Source of the DNA: Cruoricaptor ignavus
GTDB taxonomy: Bacteria; Bacteroidota; Bacteroidia; Flavobacteriales; Weeksellaceae
DNA: 64,000 bases
Direction of reading: 5' to 3'
Assembly (NCBI RefSeq): GCF_900141665.1
Contig: NZ_FQYI01000002.1
Span: 124,001-188,000, forward strand
The position numbers and the translations under genes were made by a program. Under the pieces are notes generated by a model. The model had not been told where the DNA came from. It saw nothing but the letters and a program-made list of their open reading frames with translations, and made no database searches. Positions 3,823-52,900 of the stretch are shown piece after piece (position 1 is the stretch's first letter; each line of letters begins with the position of its first letter).

Positions 3823-6800
3823 TTACATTGCCCGCATTTCAAAGCTCATACTTTCCACCACTTTCAGAATTGCTTCCACCGTATCCATCGATGTAAGGCA
3901 CGGCACGCCGTTTTCCACGGACATCCGCCGAATCTGGAAGCCGTCCCTTTCAGCCTGCTTGCCTTTCGTAGTGGTATTCACCAAATATTGAACCTTCCCC
4001 TTCTGAATGAGGTTGAGCAAATTCTCCTCCGGATTTTCCGTGATTTTATAGCCGATTTTCACCGGAATGCCCTTCTCGCTGAAAAATTTCGCCGTGCCTT
4101 CCGTAGCCCAGATTTTAAACCCAACATCGTGGAACCTCTGTGCAAATTCCGCGGCTTCCTCCTTGTGCTTATCAGCCACGGTGAAAAGTATCGAGCCAAA
4201 TAGCGGCAGCTTCCTTCCGGCAGCAATGAAGCCTTTGTACAAGGCCTTCTCCAGCGTCTGATCTTTACCCATCACTTCTCCGGTGGATTTCATTTCCGGA
4301 CCGAGCGAAGTATCCACCTTCGTTAATTTCGAGAACGAGAACACCGGCACTTTCACGAACACGCCGCTTTTCTGCGGCACCAGTCCGTTTTCCCAGCCAA
4401 GCTCTTTCAGGTTTTTTCCGAGGATGGCCTTCGTTGCCAAGTTAGCCATCGGAACATCCGTGATTTTTGATAAAAACGGCACCGTTCTGGAACTTCGCGG
4501 GTTCACCTCAATCACATAAACCTGGTTCTCAAACAGCACATACTGTATGTTCATCAGTCCGATGACATTCAGTCCGCGTGCTAATTTTTCCGTGTATTCC
4601 ACAAGCTGTGCCAGGCATTTTTCATTGATATTCTGCGGCGGATAAACCGCGATGGAATCGCCGGAATGCACACCCGCTCTTTCGATGTGCTCCATAATTC
4701 CAGGAATTACCACCGTTTCTCCATCGCAGATTGCATCTACTTCTACTTCCTTGCCCACCATATATTTGTCCACCAGCACCGGTTTTTCCGGGTCCACTTC
4801 CACGGCGTGCTCCATATAGTACGCCAGTTCGTCCTCGTTGTAAACAATCTCCATCGCCCTTCCTCCCAAAACATAAGACGGCCGAACCAGCACAGGATAG
4901 CCGATTTCGTTGGCAATTTTTATCGCCTCTTCTTTCGAGAAAGAAGTCTTGCCCTTTGGCTGCGGAATTCCCAGTTCTTGAAGAGATTTCTCGAATTTAT
5001 CGCGGTTTTCCGCCCTGTCCAAATCTTCGAGCGATGTACCCAAAATCTGCACACCGTGTGCCGCCAGTTTATCGGCAAGGTTAATGGCAGTCTGCCCGCC
5101 GAATTGTACGATGACGCCCTTTGGTTTCTCCAGTTCCACGATGTTCATCACATCTTCCTCCGTCAAAGGCTCGAAGTAAAGTTTGTCTGAAATCGAAAAA
5201 TCGGTGGACACGGTTTCCGGATTATTGTTGATGATAATCGCCTCATAGCCCAGCTCTTTGATCGCCCAGACGCAATGCACCGTGGCATAATCAAACTCCA
5301 CACCCTGCCCAATTCTTATCGGCCCGGAACCAAGCACGATGATTTTCTCTTTGTCGGTAACGATGCTCTCGTTTTCCTCTTCGTAAGTGCCGTAGAAATA
5401 AGGCGTTTCGCTCTCAAATTCCGCAGCGCAGGTATCCACCATTTTGTAAACCGGCATTATGCCGTGCCGCTTCCTGAACTCGAAAACTTCCTTTTGCGAA
5501 ACTTCCCAGAAGTGCGCAATATTCAAATCGGCAAAGCCTAATTTTTTGGCTTCGCGAATTAATTCAATCTGCTCATTTTCGTCAAGATTTTTAAGTTCGG
5601 AAAGCTTCTGCTCAAAATCTACCAGCTTTTTGATTTTCCAGATGAAAAACTTGTCAATCTTGCTCCATTCCACGATTTGCTGCCAATCGAAGCCGCGGCG
5701 CAAGGCATCACCAATGATGAACAGCCTTTCGTCATCTGCCGTTTTGATGCGCCTTTCCACTTCTTCCGGATTTTGGAAAAGGGCTTCCGCCTGTTTAGAT
5801 TTCAAGCCTAAATGCCTTAGCCCAGTTTCTAGCGACCGAATGGCTTTCTGTAGGGATTCCTCGAAATTTCTTCCAATCGCCATCACCTCACCCGTTGCCT
5901 TCATTTGTGTGGAAAGCCTGCGGTCTGCCGTTTCAAATTTGTCGAAAGGAAAGCGCGGGAACTTCGTCACCACATAATCGAGCGCCGGTTCAAAGCAGGC
6001 GTAGGTTTTTCCGGTTACAGGATTCAGGATTTCGTCGAGCGTTAATCCCACAGCGATTTTCGCCGCGATTTTCGCAATCGGGTAGCCGGTGGCCTTGCTT
6101 GCCAAAGCTGATGAGCGCGAAACTCTTGGGTTCACTTCGATGACATAGTATTTGAAAGAGTACGGATCCAGGGCCAGCTGAACATTGCAGCCGCCCTGAA
6201 TTCCAAGTGCCCGAATGATTTTCAGCGAAGCATTGCGCAGCATCTGATATTCCCTGTCCGAAAGCGTTTGAGATGGCGCCACCACGATGGAATCTCCCGT
6301 GTGAATGCCCACCGGATCGATGTTTTCCATATTGCAAACCACGATGGCATTATCGTTCGCATCCCGCATTACTTCGTACTCTATTTCCTTGTAGCCTGCG
6401 ATGGATTTTTCGATAAGGCACTGTGTCACTGGTGAATGTTTCAGGCCAAGCTCTGCAATTTCGCGCAGTTCCGCTTCGTTCGAGGCTATGCCACCGCCAG
6501 TCCCCCCCATCGTAAACGCAGGGCGCACAATCACCGGATAGCCGATGTTCTGGGCAAATTCCAGCGCACCTTCCACGGTGTTCACGATGTCAGAATCGGG
6601 CACAGGTTCGCCGAGCTCGTTCATCAGCGCACGGAACAAATCGCGGTCTTCCGCCTGATTAATCGCCGATAGTTTCGTGCCGAGAACTTCCACGCCGTAT
6701 TCATCCAGGATGCCGGAATTCTGCAGTTCCACCGCCATATTCAGTCCGGTTTGTCCGCCAAGTGTCGGCAGCAAAGCATCGGGCCTTTCTTTGCGGATAA

Positions 6801-7026
6801 TCTGGCTTACGAACGGCAACGAAATCGGCTCGATGTATACTTTATCGGCGATTTCCACATCAGTCATTATCGTTGCTGGATTGCTGTTAATGAGTATCAC
6901 GCGGTATCCTTCTTCCTTCAGGGAAAGGCAGGCCTGCGTGCCGGCATAATCAAATTCGGCAGCCTGCCCAATGATTATCGGCCCGGAACCTATTACCAAA
7001 ATGGTTTTTATGTCTGTGCGTTTCAT
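3823..7026 (-). CDS. carB: Carbamoyl-phosphate synthase large subunit
   Basis: Makes carbamoyl phosphate from bicarbonate, ATP and the ammonia delivered by CarA; it feeds both pyrimidine and arginine synthesis. The 1067 residues show the internal duplication of the family: the carboxy-phosphate half begins [20 protein letters not shown] and the carbamoyl-phosphate half repeats this as [18 protein letters not shown]. Each half has its ATP-grasp domain ([12 protein letters not shown] and [11 protein letters not shown]). The last ~130 residues ([12 protein letters not shown]...) form the MGS-like allosteric domain, which binds UMP and ornithine in characterised enzymes. Full length. It is separated from carA by the four-helix-bundle gene. 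Confidence 0.98.
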
Positions 7027-7058: not shown

Positions 7059-7409
7059 TTACAGCAGGTTGTTTTTAAATTTGTAAATCATTTTCTGAAT
7101 TTCAATTAAATCTGAAAGCAATTTATCCACGCAATCTTCGTTCAATAATTGTAATTCCTTTGCTAAAATTAATTGTGTTTGAAGTTCAAAAGCAGAGCCC
7201 ATCGCAATACCAAGAAAGTGATTGAATTCCTTGTTGTTGTTTCTGCCGCTCCCTTCTGCAATGTTTGAAGGTATTGAAACCGAGTTTCTCTTCATCTGAG
7301 AAATTAGCCCATACTTTTCTTCAGCAGAAATATTGTCACAGTTCAGGTAAATTTCTTTTGCCAAATTGATTGATTTCTGCCAAAAAAGTAACCTCTCGAA
7401 ATTATGCAT
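7059..7409 (-). CDS. Four-helix-bundle protein (S23 / 23S intervening-sequence family)
   Basis: A 116-residue all-helical protein. [15 protein letters not shown], the [20 protein letters not shown] segment and the [20 protein letters not shown] segment are the hallmarks of the family first seen as ORFs in 23S rRNA intervening sequences and common in Bacteroidota chromosomes. Its cellular role is not established; structural relatives include the Avd accessory protein of diversity-generating retroelements. It sits between carA and carB, starts 8 bases inside the end of carA, and is bracketed directly outside the reading frame by an inverted repeat (7039-7058, 7416-7435). That suggests it arrived as a cassette. 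No role in carbamoyl phosphate synthesis is implied. Confidence 0.88.
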
Positions 7410-8514
7410 ATCTATAATCTTGGTTCTCGAATCTCGGTTCTCGGTTCCTAAACTCCGCCATCATCTCAATAAACTCATCAAACAAATAATTCCCATCTTC
7501 AGGGCCTGGGCTTGCTTCAGGGTGGTACTGCACGGAAAAGCACGGGTGAATCTTGTGCCGCACGCCTTCGTTCGTTCTGTCATTCAGCGCGATGTGCGTT
7601 TCTTCCAGGTCGGTAGTTTTCAGGCTTTCCTGATCCACCGCATAGCCGTGGTTTTGTGATGTGATGATCACCTTGTTCGTCCTTAAATCCAGCACGGGAT
7701 GATTGCCGCCACGATGACCGAATTTTAGCTTGAAAGTTTTCGCGCCGCAAGCCAATGAAATCAGCTGATGACCAAGGCAAATGCCGAAAATTGGCACCTT
7801 GCCCAAAATTCCGCGGATCATTTCCTGTGCCGTTCCCACATCTTCCGGATTTCCCGGGCCGTTCGTCAGCATCACACCATCCGGTGCCAAAAGCAGGATG
7901 TCTTCCGCCGAAATTTGGTGGCCTACTACCGTTACATCGCAATCCCGGCGGTTTAGTTCGCGCAGGATGCCGTTCTTCGAGCCGAAATCTACCAACACTA
8001 CTTTGAAACCGCGACCAGGACTTGCATAGGTGCCTTTTGTGGAAACCGCCGCCACTTGATTATTTGGCAAAACTGCAGATTTCAGTTCCGCTAAAACCTG
8101 CTGTTCATCGGCATCGGCATTCACGATTTTCCCTTTCACGGTGCCGCTGCTGCGCAGAATTTTCGTCAGCCTTCTTGTATCCACCCCGGAAATTCCGCTA
8201 AGGCCTTTTTTTTCAAAAAATTCCTGTACGCTCAGTTGGCTACGGAAATTGGACGGAAAATCGCAGAGCTCCTTCACCACAAGGCCTTTGATGGCAGGCT
8301 CGATGGATTCGTAATCATCACGGTTGATGCCGTAGTTTCCAATCAGCGGATAAGTCATACAAATGATTTGCCCGAAGTACGAAGGATCGGACACAACTTC
8401 CTGATAACCAGTCATTCCCGTATTGAAAACCACTTCGCCAAGCGTATCATTTTCTGCACCGAAACCTTCACCGTGGAAGATTTCGCCCGTTTCTAATATG
8501 AGTTTCTTTTTCAT
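7402..8514 (-). CDS. carA: Carbamoyl-phosphate synthase small (glutaminase) subunit
   Basis: Hydrolyses glutamine and channels ammonia to CarB. The start is taken at the ATG at 8514 (MKKKLILETGEIFHGEG), since that aligns with the usual CarA N-terminus; an in-frame ATG at 8526 would add four residues. Class I glutaminase triad: Cys246 (FGICLGHQ), His331 and Glu333 (YHPEASPGP). The family C-terminus should end near FDEFIEMM. Here it runs on through about 15 odd residues ending [10 protein letters not shown], which are encoded by the repeat bordering the four-helix-bundle cassette. The stop lies 8 bases inside that gene. Confidence 0.97.
   Translation of the reverse strand: MKKKLILETGEIFHGEGFGAENDTLGEVVFNTGMTGYQEVVSDPSYFGQIICMTYPLIGNYGINRDDYESIEPAIKGLVVKELCDFPSNFRSQLSVQEFFEKKGLSGISGVDTRRLTKILRSSGTVKGKIVNADADEQQVLAELKSAVLPNNQVAAVSTKGTYASPGRGFKVVLVDFGSKNGILRELNRRDCDVTVVGHQISAEDILLLAPDGVMLTNGPGNPEDVGTAQEMIRGILGKVPIFGICLGHQLISLACGAKTFKLKFGHRGGNHPVLDLRTNKVIITSQNHGYAVDQESLKTTDLEETHIALNDRTNEGVRHKIHPCFSVQYHPEASPGPEDGNYLFDEFIEMMAEFRNREPRFENQDYRYA
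7416..7435 (-). repeat. Right copy of the 20-bp inverted repeat beside the four-helix-bundle gene
   Basis: Begins 7 bases upstream of the four-helix-bundle start and encodes part of the extra C-terminal tail of CarA. Inverted partner of 7039-7058. The flank 7436-7447 continues with a further partial copy (GAACCGAGAACC on the minus strand). Confidence 0.75.
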
Positions 8515-8535
8515 TTTAATAGACATAAGATTTTG

Positions 8536-9488
<953 letters not shown>

Positions 9489-9611
9489 CTAAGTTTTTAG
9501 GCAAAAAAAAACGAAGTCTGAAACTTCGTAACAAGGAAACAATTCATCACCGAAAACATCAGCGCTGCTGATTAACCGAAAAAAAACCAATGAATTTTTG
9601 CGCGTTTCCAT
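9489..9611 (-). CDS. Putative pyrL-like leader peptide (40 codons)
   Basis: Small reading frame in the pyrB leader. It starts at the ATG at 9611 (METRKNSLVFFRLISS...), runs through both hairpins and the terminator, and ends at TAG (9491-9489), three bases before the pyrB ATG and in the same frame. The U8 tract is read as VFF and the terminator U-run as FVFF. Arrangement and size recall the 44-codon pyrL of enteric pyrBI, where leader translation coupled to UTP-dependent pausing decides whether the terminator forms. The ATG is only about 8 bases after the -7 element, so the mRNA would be nearly leaderless. No homology to pyrL is claimed; this is a positional analogy. Confidence 0.5.
   Translation of the reverse strand: METRKNSLVFFRLISSADVFGDELFPCYEVSDFVFFCLKT
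9503..9529 (-). terminator. Attenuator-type terminator in front of pyrB
   Basis: On the minus strand ACGAAGT, loop TTCAG, ACTTCGT and then nine T. The T-run ends about 17 bases before the pyrB start codon, so it lies within the leader of its own operon and not after a gene. That placement is expected for premature-termination control. Confidence 0.8.
9558..9572 (-). promoter_or_regulatory. Middle hairpin of the pyrB leader
   Basis: ATCAGC, a three-base loop AGC, and GCTGAT form a perfect 6-bp stem between the first U8 tract and the terminator. It could be a pause or spacing hairpin; the role is inferred from position. Confidence 0.4.
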
Positions 9612-9614
9612 TGG
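9579..9614 (-). promoter_or_regulatory. First hairpin plus U8 tract of the pyrB leader
   Basis: On the minus strand CCAATG pairs with CATTGG (9614-9609 with 9592-9587), directly followed by eight T (9586-9579). The leader ATG is within the 5' arm. A hairpin followed by a U-rich tract where polymerase would pause at low UTP is what the enteric pyrBI leader has ahead of its terminator. Confidence 0.5.
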
Positions 9615-9618
9615 GATG

Positions 9619-9626
9619 CAAAGATA
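9619..9626 (-). promoter_or_regulatory. Promoter -7 element of the pyrB operon
   Basis: TATCTTTG on the minus strand is an exact match to the Bacteroidota -7 element TAnnTTTG. Transcription would begin near 9612-9616, giving a leader of about 130 bases ahead of pyrB. No clear -33 TTTG was seen. Confidence 0.6.
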
Positions 9627-9695: not shown

Positions 9696-11036
9696 ATGAT
9701 GTGGCTCCATAAAACCAAGACTTTGCTTGGATTTCTAACGCTCAGTAGTTCAGTCATTTATGCGCAGAAAGACAGCATTGAAAATCGCCAATTCGTAAAC
9801 GAAGAATTGCTGAAACGCATTGAGGAACTTGAAAACAAGCAGAATCCGAAGAAGACTTCAGTGGTTGATTTTTACGGTTTCATCCGCACGGATTTTTCCT
9901 ACGACAGCCGGCAGGTAGCCTACACGCGGGAATACTTGATGAACCTCTACCCTCTGGACGAAAAACTAGATGCCAATGGTGATGATATAAATGCCAGCGG
10001 CGGGAGCAATTTCCTCGCGATCGGCACCCGGCTCGGCGCAAGGGTGAGCGGTCCGGAAATCTGGGGTGCGAAATCATATGCATTGGCGGAGGCGGATTTT
10101 GTGGGGAATACGGAGATCAACCGCGCCTCGGGCGGCTCCGGCACCATCGGGATGCTGCGGCTGCGCCAGGCACATTTTACGCTTGCCTGGCAAAAAACTT
10201 CGCTGAATGTTGGGCAGTCGTGGTACCCGGCGGTGATTCCCGAAGTGATGCCAAGCGTCGCCGATTTTAATGCCGGCGTGATGTTCACGCCCTTCGGATG
10301 GGGCACGCAGATCCGTGTAAATCATCAGTTTAACACAAACATCACCGCGAGCATCACCGCCTACAAGGATCGGGAATTCCCGACGGCTACGGCTGGGGGC
10401 GCGTATACCAATTCAGCGAGTTTAAATTCTTCCATCCCGATTTTTAACGCTCAGATACAATTCAAAAATGAGCACATCATCACAGGAATCGGCGGTGAAT
10501 ATCAGTCGCTAAAACCCGTAACAGAATCCAACAATCTGAAAAGCAGCAACAAGGTAAATGCGGGTGCGGGATATGCTTACTTCCGGTATTCCGACAGTAA
10601 ATTTATAGGGAAATTTTACGGAATGCACGGCGGAAATCTTCACCATTATGTGATGAACAGCGGCTTTGGAGGATACCTTTCCGATGACGGGACGGAGGCT
10701 TACAAGCCAGTACGAACGACCTCCCTGTGGACAGATTTTTCAGCCGGCAACGCCAAGATCACTCCCGGAATATTTTTTGGATATACGAAAAACCACGGCG
10801 CCGGCGGCGACATCAGCAATCTTTATATGCGGGGTGGGGATGCAAGGCGAGTTCTTGACAATGTATGGCGGGCATCCGGCAGAGTGGAATTTAAACAAAA
10901 TAAATTTAATTTAGCGCCGGAAGTAGAATATACTGCTGCAAAGTGGGCAGATACCGACAGCAACGGCGCGGCTGGCGGCAACGGGAAGTCCGTAGGAAGC
11001 TTGAGAATACTCGCCAGAGCCATCTACTCATTTTAG
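9696..11036 (+). CDS. Outer-membrane porin, DcaP-like
   Basis: A 446-residue protein with a signal peptide ending SSSVIYAQ, a short predicted coiled segment (NEELLKRIEELENKQN), and then beta-strand-rich sequence starting VVDFYGFIRTDFSYDSRQ and ending in an aromatic residue (RILARAIYSF), as outer-membrane barrels do. The coiled N-terminus followed by a YGFI strand resembles DcaP-type trimeric porins. The substrate cannot be read from the sequence. It is transcribed away from the pyr operon and lies 20 bases upstream of the rel gene, so the two may be co-transcribed. Its GC content is visibly higher than in the nearby spacers. Confidence 0.7.
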   Translation: MMWLHKTKTLLGFLTLSSSVIYAQKDSIENRQFVNEELLKRIEELENKQNPKKTSVVDFYGFIRTDFSYDSRQVAYTREYLMNLYPLDEKLDANGDDINASGGSNFLAIGTRLGARVSGPEIWGAKSYALAEADFVGNTEINRASGGSGTIGMLRLRQAHFTLAWQKTSLNVGQSWYPAVIPEVMPSVADFNAGVMFTPFGWGTQIRVNHQFNTNITASITAYKDREFPTATAGGAYTNSASLNSSIPIFNAQIQFKNEHIITGIGGEYQSLKPVTESNNLKSSNKVNAGAGYAYFRYSDSKFIGKFYGMHGGNLHHYVMNSGFGGYLSDDGTEAYKPVRTTSLWTDFSAGNAKITPGIFFGYTKNHGAGGDISNLYMRGGDARRVLDNVWRASGRVEFKQNKFNLAPEVEYTAAKWADTDSNGAAGGNGKSVGSLRILARAIYSF

Positions 11037-49976: not shown

Positions 49977-49984
49977 TATTTTTG
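49977..49984 (+). promoter_or_regulatory. -7 element for the CcsBA gene
   Basis: TATTTTTG, an exact TAnnTTTG, 7 bases before the ATG at 49992. This implies a nearly leaderless message if used. Confidence 0.45.
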
Positions 49985-49991
49985 CAGTTCT

Positions 49992-52900
49992 ATGAAAAAA
50001 ATTCAGGAAATCCTTGTCTCTACAAGAACGATGGCGGTGCTTCTGGTAGTGTACGCCGTAGCAATGGCGGTGGCCACATTCATTGAAAACGATTACGGTA
50101 CGCCCACTGCAAAAGCGCTCATCTACGAAGCCAAATGGTTCGAATTTCTAATGCTGCTGCTCATCCTGAATTTCCTGGGCAACATCGGCCGCTACCAGCT
50201 TTGGCGGCGCGAAAAATGGCCTGTACTTGCCTTCCACCTTTCCTTCATACTGATATTTCTTGGCGGTGCCATCACTCGGTACATCAGCTATGAAGGTATT
50301 ATGCATATCCGTGAAGGCGAAACTTCCAACGAAATCATCACCGATAAACATTTCTTCAAAATACAGGTGGAAGAGAACGGCGATGTGCTGAATTACAAGG
50401 ACTTACATTACATAATGTCGCCGCTTCATCACAACTTCAAGGCGAAATACAATTTCCACGATAAAAAGATTTCCGTAAAGGCGCTGGATTATGTTCAGCG
50501 GAAAAAGGACAGTTTGCTGGCGGATAAGGATGGCATTGAATACCTGCACTTCGTGATTGCCGGCGAAAACGGCCGTGAAAATCATTACATCCGCAGCGGC
50601 GAAAGCCAAAGCGTGAACGGGATGCTCATCACTTACAACAGGCCGATTGACGGTGCGGTGGAATTCCGGAAGGACGGCGAAAACCTGATGATAAAAACGC
50701 CGCAGGATGCGCAATATATGGTGATGGCCACGCAAACTGAAGGTGCCACGAAGAAAGACGAATACCAGCCTTTGATGCTGCGAAGCCTCTACACCATAGG
50801 AGATTTGAGAATTGTGGTGCCGGAAGGCCTAAAGACTGGAACCGTGAAAGCCTTCGAAGGCGATAAGGTGAAGGATGCTAACCTGCCCGACCAACTGACG
50901 GTGGAAGTGAGCGGCCCGAAAAGCAAGCAAATCGTAAATCTTCCTGTGGAAAAGGGCAACCCAAATCTTTTCAAGCAAATCAACCTGGATGGGATGAATG
51001 TAATGCTGGGCTTCGGGCCGAAAGTTTACCACACACCATTTGCCATAAAGCTTGACGATTTCGTGATGGAAACCTACCCTGGCAGCAATTCGCCGAGCGC
51101 CTTTGAAAGCCACATCAAAGTCATTGACGAAGGCAAGGAAATGCCGTACAAAGTCTATATGAACAATGTGCTGGATTACAAGGGATACCGCTTCTTTCAG
51201 GCGAGCTTCGACAGCGACAGGAGAGGCACGGTGCTTTCCGTAAACCACGATTACTGGGGCACTTTGATAACCTACATTGGCTACGCCGTTTTATTTATTT
51301 CGATGTTTTTAATTTTCTTCTGGAAAGGCACGCAATTCTGGAAACTGAACAAGACGCTGAAAGACATCAGCCGGAAAAAAGCGGCAGCAGCACTGGCTTT
51401 GCTGATGAGCATCCAGCTTTCTGCACAAAAAATTGAAACGCACGGCACCGATGATGGCAGCGGCACATCCCGCATCGCAGAACGCGAACACACGCACACC
51501 GCACCTACAAATACTGCCCCACCACTGACGAAGCTGCGCACTATTTCTGCGGATGAAATTATACAGTCAGTGAGAATTCCGAAAGAACATGCGGACAAAT
51601 TTGGCTACCTGCTCGTTCAAAATATTGAAGGGAGAATCGTCCCTATCAACACACAGGCAATTGATGTTCTGAGAAAACTTTACAAAAAAGATAATTTTAA
51701 AGGTACGAATGGAAAAAAATTAACCCCAGAGCAGTGGTTCCTTTCTATAAATACAGACACGCCGAGCTGGACGATGGTGCCGATGATAAAAGTGGGCTCT
51801 AAAGGCGGCGAGGAACTGAGGAGAAAAACCCGCGCCAATGAGGAGGGCTACACCTCGCTTATGAACCTCTTCCCTACCGATGCGGAAGGGAATCTGCGCT
51901 ATGTTTTGGAAGATGATTACAACGCTGCTTTCCAAAAGAAGATGGCGGAGCAGAGCAATTATGACAAGGAAGTAATTGCGCTAAATGAGCGTGTGCAGAT
52001 TTTCAATGAATTTTTCAGCGGACAGCTAATGCGAATAGTTCCTGTGAAAAACGATCCCAACCATCGCTGGAACTCCTGGCTTGATGAGAAATTCGAGCCG
52101 GATATGGAATCCCAGCAAATTATGGGGCCGTATTTTGCTGAAATTCTTGAGGCGCAGAAAAGCGGCAGCTGGCAGCAGGCGGACATTGAATTAAAAAAAC
52201 TCTCTGACTATCAGCAGAAATGGGGGAAAAATGTAGTACCGGCAAAATCCAAAGTGGATTTGGAAGTTTTCCTGAACAAGGTGAACATTAATTTTAAACT
52301 GCTGATTTTCTACACCTTTGTTGCAATTCTTTTGGTGGTGCTCGGTTTTGTGGAATTATTCCACCCGTCGAAAATTTTGGATAAGGCGATTAAAACCATC
52401 ATCATCGTAGGCTGCATAGGCTATGTTCTGCAGTTTCTGGGGCTGATCGCACGGTGGTATATTTCCGGGCACGCACCTTGGTCGAACGGTTACGAAGCCA
52501 TCATCTTCATTTCGTGGGTTGGCATCACGGCAGGCCTGGTGCTTTACCGAAATTCCAACGCGCTAATTCCTGCGGCAGGATTTTTGGTAGCGGTAATTAT
52601 GATGGGCTTTGCGCACGGTGGCTCCGCTCTGGATCCGCAAATTACGCCGCTCGTTCCGGTGCTGAAATCGTACTGGCTCATCATCCATGTGGCGATAATC
52701 ACGGCAAGTTACGGTTTCTTCGGACTGTCCTTTGTGATTGCCATTATTTCCCTGATTTTCTACATTTTAGCAGATAAAAATTTGTTCAAAAAACACCACA
52801 GCACCACGATCCGCGAGCTGACGATAGTTTCGGAAATGTCACTAACCATCGGGCTTTACGCACTTACGGTCGGTACTTTTCTCGGCGGAATCTGGGCAAA

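Follow-up and report, generated by a model that had tools for sequence, protein, structure and literature searches.

A putative pyrBI-type attenuator ahead of pyrB in Cruoricaptor ignavus and other Weeksellaceae

In a 64,000 nt stretch of the Cruoricaptor ignavus genome, referred to here as the window, the genes for aspartate carbamoyltransferase and carbamoyl-phosphate synthase are preceded by a promoter element, a short reading frame and an intrinsic terminator, which raises the question of how transcription of this operon is controlled. The original prediction was a leader-peptide attenuator in the style of pyrBI, placed before pyrB and carAB in a member of the Bacteroidota lacking PyrR. 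For E. coli pyrBI, PMC5021804 describes how coupling of transcription and translation across the pyrL leader prevents the terminator from forming, and PMC4824070 states that this terminator, situated within the leader gene, escapes repression when UTP is at its normal level. The -7 element, two hairpins, U8 tract, terminator and 40-codon frame from which the prediction was assembled are all present (Table 1), and a comparison extending over 25 genera lends it good support as a reading of the sequence.

The window locus

Table 1. Positions of leader elements and operon genes in the window
Feature	Position	Strand	Remarks
-7 promoter element TATCTTTG	9619..9626	-	consensus TAnnTTTG
Leader cistron, 40 codons + TAG	9489..9611	-	ATG 9611-9609, TAG 9491-9489; start codon roughly 3 nt from predicted 5' end
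Hairpin H1, CCAATGGA/TTCATTGG	9587..9614 (arms 9614-9607 / 9594-9587)	-	contains leader start codon
U8 tract	9586-9579	-	directly after H1
Hairpin H2, ATCAGC/GCTGAT	9558..9572	-	position is that of the relatives' hairpin preceding the U-rich stretch
U-rich stretch, H2 to terminator	9530..9557	-	proposed UTP-sensitive pause zone; without ATATTT motif
Intrinsic terminator H3 (putative attenuator), ACGAAGT/ACTTCGT	9503..9529 (hairpin 9529-9511, U to 9503)	-	7 bp + U tract
pyrB, aspartate carbamoyltransferase catalytic chain	8601..9485	-	Bacillus-like; ATG 9485
carA, carbamoyl-phosphate synthase small chain	7402..8526	-	
Small four-helix-bundle gene (TIGR02436)	7059-7409		between carA and carB
carB, carbamoyl-phosphate synthase large chain	3823..7026	-	

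The genes are arranged in the order pyrB, carA, the small four-helix-bundle gene and carB, followed by a pst cluster, and no terminator-like sites were found on the minus strand from pyrB to carB. The U tract of the leader terminator ends 17 bases upstream of pyrB, and three bases separate the leader TAG from the pyrB ATG. The neighbouring upstream frame (9696-11036) runs in the opposite direction, so the leader terminator does not mark where a neighbouring gene ends. An inverted repeat (GGAGCCAAGAGCCA / TGGCTCTTGTTTCC, window 8535-8632) spans the end of pyrB and the spacer between pyrB and carA.

Distribution and conservation of the leader

A search of genome contigs with PyrB returned Riemerella, Bergeyella, Chryseobacterium, Elizabethkingia, Cloacibacterium, Soonwooa, Epilithonimonas and Cruoricaptor among the named relatives; on the basis of these names, and with Riemerella placed in the Weeksellaceae, the family of the window (f1) was taken to be the Weeksellaceae. 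PyrB is present in 114 of the 148 family genomes. The other 34, without a match at E 1e-3 (G007, G009, G017, G020, G027 and others), may be pyrimidine auxotrophs or users of another route.

Upstream regions were read at 90 of the 115 listed pyrB places, including that of the window. In 85 of these, representing 25 genera, a TAnnTTTG box is followed by an AUG with a short leader frame and then by an intrinsic terminator, in most cases with a hairpin and a U-rich stretch ahead of it. The script behind this count accepts only regions with the box, an ATG 5-7 nt further on and a CGAA-like terminator, such that these features are present by construction. The box and the ATG are 5 nt apart in six leaders, 6 nt in 78 and 7 nt in one, that of the window, and a looser earlier scan, in which this spacing could be as much as 11 nt, gave the identical 5-7 nt in 84 of the 85 and missed one. 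The five regions without the element all belong to a single genus (g17), with a pyrB only 51-54% identical. As judged from sequence, a pyrL-like leader design is common to the Weeksellaceae, lying before nearly all pyrB genes of the main clade. At one locus (L118:393-474) a Flavo-1 RNA (RF01705, 51.2 bits) is found upstream of the pyrB leader on the opposite strand.

The specificity of this association was assessed with a covariance model, R1, built from 21 relatives with the window excluded. R1 has 108 matches in the 148 family genomes, 100 of them situated 12-122 nt before a pyrB, and precedes 100 of 105 main-clade pyrB copies (79 of 84 once the training sequences are removed). The five copies missed (the window, G015, G024, G031 and G050) show the element on direct reading, and none of nine g17 genomes has a match adjoining pyrB. 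Under strict filters, 295 genomes of the class yielded two family members and one weak site outside the family, the window's own genome lying below the threshold of that search. Nine R1 matches, eight in the family and one outside, are located away from pyrB; when read by eye, eight of these were dismissed as resembling gene-end terminators or chance matches. In G051, of genus g2, a leader precedes carB (C1:643183-643275, minus strand; L220/L228), with its own -7 box, an ATG and a 31-codon frame running through the terminator, and looks like the same device as the pyrB leader. No such leader was seen before carB in two other g2 genomes in which the carB start was covered (G065 and G085), a comparison that left out G001, G033 and G076, where the stretches missed the carB start. 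Among 44 upstream regions from outside the family, four terminators were detected, all in one family and reading as the 3' ends of upstream genes, with a detector that recovers only 45 of the 85 true leaders and hence provides just a weak negative.

The leader frame appears to be under constraint. As anticipated by the original prediction, it is kept open in relatives: in 79 of 85 leaders the open frame comes at least as close as 6 nt to the terminator core, against 18.8 expected from dinucleotide shuffles, and by genus it does so in 21 of 25 against 5.7. These shuffles were used in place of a control based on the other frames (2/85 open in frame +1, 22/85 in frame +2), which was dropped, ATGA having a built-in TGA. 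Relative to the terminator core, the stop codon ends at -6 to 0 nt in 74 leaders, lies inside or beyond the terminator in nine, including that of the window, and comes earlier in two. The predicted run of the frame through the terminator to just before pyrB thus holds for the window and for E. coli, and is the minority form in a family whose leaders mostly stop at the foot of the terminator. Conservation of the leader peptide was considered and set aside, with mixed pN/pS ratios and a value of 1.61 over 216 non-independent pairs: ratios of 3.5, 2.8, 2.9 and 0.73 were obtained for genera g20, g9, g5 and g26, and of 0.07 and 0.21 for g2 and g11, where there are few pairs. In some genera the peptide may nevertheless have a role.

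Of the RNA structures, the terminator shows the clearest covariation, five of its nine pairs having changed on both sides among 45 sequences. H2 is retained while its sequence varies widely (GGCA/TGCC, GGGC/GCCC, ATGGC/GCCAT, CAACTC/GAGTTG): a hairpin of at least four pairs occupies this place in 74 of 77 distinct leaders, the other three being without H2 by the criterion used. A p of 0.05 is reached by 36 of the 77 under simple shuffling, and the combined p, from one sequence per genus and dinucleotide shuffling, is about 2e-9, a value that serves as a guide since the sequences are related. Consensus folding of one alignment (A1) recovered the terminator alone, as the register of H2 shifts between genera. 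H1, the hairpin containing the AUG, was rejected as a family feature, with p <=0.05 in eight of 77 leaders and a Fisher p of 0.105 across genera. In a second alignment (A2), changes on both sides affect two of its six pairs and pairing holds in 75% of cells, suggesting that H1 may be a genuine structure in just a subset of genera. The expected covariation of hairpins in relatives was therefore borne out for the terminator and, in retained structure, for H2, with H1 patchy.

The U-rich sequence is likewise placed differently from the prediction, in which the AUG hairpin and the U8 tract formed the pause element; this arrangement is not family-wide, and the conserved U-rich stretch lies after the second hairpin. 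It contains the motif ATATTT ahead of the terminator in 77 of 85 leaders, mostly in frame 1 and also in frames 0 and 2, and this occurrence in all three frames points to RNA rather than peptide. A U-tract element begins 8-13 nt after H2 in 59 of 74 leaders, and the final 18 nt before the terminator contain a mean of 9.8 U, compared with 4.9 for the 18 nt at the frame start and 6.4 for codons 7-12. No antiterminator was evident in 77 leaders, the best ungapped pairing with the 5' arm of the terminator scoring 3.52 against 3.65 in shuffles. If none exists, the terminator has to be covered by something else, and the position of the stop codon would suit a ribosome for this task.

The window copy is among the most divergent in the family, its 40 codons crossing the terminator, its U-rich stretch lacking ATATTT, an extra U8 following H1, and a distance of 28 nt separating H2 from the terminator. 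Its terminator hairpin folds better than 200 of 200 shuffles and H2 better than 190 of 200; H1 alone (-5.9 kcal/mol) is better than 182, with 18 as good, and has a p of 0.037 in an anchored test. In the predicted fold of the whole leader (9504-9613; -26.5 kcal/mol, z -1.9), the start region does not form H1 but is paired with the bases immediately preceding the terminator. Against a covariance model built without it, the window leader scores 32.7 bits, with an E of 2e-5 in 1.2 kb. No other site in its own 2.2 Mb genome matches better: there its E is 0.04, which falls below the family search threshold, and the next match has an E of 9.8. Two further counts are weak when taken alone: a box with an ATG after 7 nt occurs twice in 64 kb, against 0.92 expected, and seven terminator-like sites were found in 3 kb, against 4.6 expected. 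The evidence from the family supports a function for this divergent copy.

PyrR and the origin of pyrB

Outside the Weeksellaceae, a different arrangement prevails. An order-wide search of 119 genomes gave PyrR matches of 1e-15 or better in 83, among which 76 reach about 1e-27 or better. For 76 of the 77 pyrB copies of the order outside the family, PyrR is encoded on the same strand, 45-610 nt ahead of the gene. The original prediction, which spoke of the Bacteroidota, accordingly describes a trait of the Weeksellaceae and not of the phylum at large, as the single weak R1 match outside the family also indicates. None of the 14 pyrB-bearing family members of the order sample matches at 1e-15 or better, and a Bacillus PyrR query against the 148 family genomes produced only weak matches (in 87 of the genomes at E 1e-3, the best at 32 bits), which were taken for other phosphoribosyltransferases.

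PyrR-binding RNA elements gave a similar picture. As a positive control, Rfam identified three PyrR elements around pyrB in each of two Bacillales loci, whereas three loci from the family and five from sister families had none at the gathering threshold. Searched at E 1 and 5, the window and nine family loci likewise gave other matches but no PyrR element. On the leaders themselves, nothing exceeded the Rfam threshold, with two weak matches to ncr1241 (E 0.29 and 0.87). Control of Weeksellaceae pyrB by PyrR was rejected on the basis of these weak protein matches and the lack of a PyrR element in the loci scanned. The leaders resemble the PyrR-dependent pyr attenuators of RF00515 in having a terminator before pyr genes, but differ in that neither the PyrR gene, sought throughout the Weeksellaceae, nor the RNA element, at threshold in the loci scanned, was found.

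The window pyrB is approximately 60% identical to that of Bacillales, nearer than to the pyrB of sister families, and pyrB genes outside the family are only 39-46% identical to it. These relationships would fit a replacement of pyrB accompanied by loss of PyrR. It is about as easy to believe as to doubt that the Weeksellaceae swapped regulators in this way, exchanging the PyrR-pyrB arrangement of their sister families for a Bacillus-like pyrB and a new, convergent attenuator of the pyrBI type with a leader cistron beginning very close to the mRNA 5' end.

A proposed mechanism and its alternatives

The sequence features suggest that the region ahead of pyrB-carA-carB is probably a transcription attenuator of the pyrBI type. 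They comprise the order of the elements, the constrained frame, a stop at or past the terminator, a U-rich tract falling in different frames, and the lack of a visible antiterminator and of PyrR; in three respects these agree with what defines the pyrBI type, namely a leader frame reaching or crossing an intrinsic terminator before pyrB, a U-rich region upstream of that terminator, and no antiterminator structure in the 77 leaders. According to a passage in PMC9723704, the -7 box region of Flavobacterium psychrophilum covers -12 to -5, which would set the leader AUG at +2 to +4 of the predicted transcript and make the cistron nearly leaderless; the same source gives leaderless mRNAs as 5.5% in that species, a minority. 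RNA polymerase would thus start 1-3 nt before the leader AUG, as estimated from the distance to the box, and the ribosome would have to load at the very 5' end. With no antiterminator to compete, the terminator before pyrB would form by default. When UTP is plentiful, polymerase would cross the U-rich stretch after H2 and terminate before a ribosome arrives; when UTP is short, it would pause there while the ribosome translating the leader closes up. The ribosome footprint would then cover the 5' arm of the terminator, either at the leader stop codon, as in most relatives, or while translating through the hairpin, as in the window and E. coli, and pyrB-carA-carB would be transcribed. A role for H2 as a pause hairpin is uncertain, given that the E. 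coli pyrL pause is described in PMC9291695 as independent of hairpin and NusA.

Comparison with enteric bacteria reveals both likenesses and differences. E. coli pyrL DNA matches this order of elements, with a hairpin, 10 nt, a U-rich stretch, the terminator, the stop and 3 nt leading up to pyrB, and both there and in the window the frame crosses the terminator and stops 3 nt before pyrB, unlike the 74 of 85 Weeksellaceae leaders that end at its foot. A further feature of pyrBI is a U-run at the transcript start that permits reiterative transcription, which the predicted transcript start here lacks. In addition, unlike in pyrBI, the leader AUG of the Weeksellaceae lies just 1-3 nt from the predicted 5' end; pyrB of the window is Bacillus-like, and no PyrI is present in its genome. 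A search for signs of common descent with the enteric leader-pyrBI unit found instead a Bacillales-like pyrB, no pyrI and a single weak model match outside the family, such that the attenuator would appear to work like the enteric unit rather than to descend from it.

Several alternatives would retain the terminator while changing what controls it. The ribosome could sense an amino acid through regulatory codons, for instance aspartate or glutamine as substrates of PyrB and CarAB. Bacteroid-trp (RF01692) has a leader-peptide role of this kind. It is entered in a table of PMC2864571 as a candidate cis-regulatory RNA of the same phylum, and clues to leader-peptide attenuation before amino-acid operons of F. 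psychrophilum are mentioned in PMC9723704; the pyrB leaders share with such systems a leader peptide and a terminator. They precede other genes, however, and have neither regulatory codons nor a visible antiterminator: no residue exceeds 12% of the leader peptides (one per genus), with F, I, L and N commonest, as U- and A-rich RNA would be expected to give. Their stop codons also lie at the terminator, whereas PMC4824070 describes, for amino-acid attenuators, a gap of more than 20 bp between leader gene and terminator. Amino-acid sensing was rejected on these three grounds as very unlikely. Less easily separated is a ribosome-controlled attenuator responding to growth state, through general ribosome loading or translation speed, instead of UTP. 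The sequence evidence for ribosome-dependent antitermination fits this equally, and the U-rich stretch could be a constitutive pause, but the element is tied to a pyrimidine gene, nearly all model matches preceding pyrB and one more carB, and U is enriched ahead of the terminator, which together make it rather unlikely.

The terminator might otherwise be controlled by a protein other than PyrR, or by a ligand, binding the leader RNA, with the short frame incidental. The hairpins could provide binding sites, and the structure of H2 is kept; yet its sequence and loop differ between genera, leaving no visible common recognition element, Rfam offered only the weak ncr1241 matches, and the leader frame is held open, so that this explanation is highly improbable. 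Extremely improbable is that the terminated leader acts as an independent small RNA, or that its cistron only boosts pyrB translation through reinitiation. An RNA of roughly 110 nt with its own promoter and terminator would suit the former, while the latter could draw on the proposal in PMC4833913 that leader genes near the next gene aid initiation, and on the leader stop of the window being so close to pyrB. In most relatives, however, the stop is at or before the terminator foot and so not beside pyrB, and both ideas leave the contact between stop and terminator, and the U-rich tract, unexplained.

The pyrBI-type reading, in which the response of the Weeksellaceae leader to UTP is inferred, would have consequences beyond this operon. 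No paper describing an attenuator of pyrB in Bacteroidota was found in the open-access literature, within which this would, if it works as proposed, be the first of the pyrBI type in the phylum, and the element stands before main-clade pyrB across the whole of a family with Chryseobacterium, Elizabethkingia and Riemerella among its members. The group to which C. ignavus belongs is largely without Shine-Dalgarno sequences, and to our knowledge the coupling of transcription and translation has been little studied in Flavobacterium. Were the mechanism correct, ribosomes would keep close behind RNA polymerase in this phylum, for which coupling, as well as initiation independent of Shine-Dalgarno sequences, is poorly understood, and the leader would provide a compact natural reporter for both. 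It would also mean that a UTP sensor can be made from near-leaderless initiation combined with coupling, and that one pathway has traded a protein sensor, PyrR, for a sensor based on coupling.

A second TAnnTTTG box with an ATG after 7 nt is located elsewhere in the window (49977-49994), directly before a frame of 1075 codons, which is possibly expressed from a near-leaderless mRNA.
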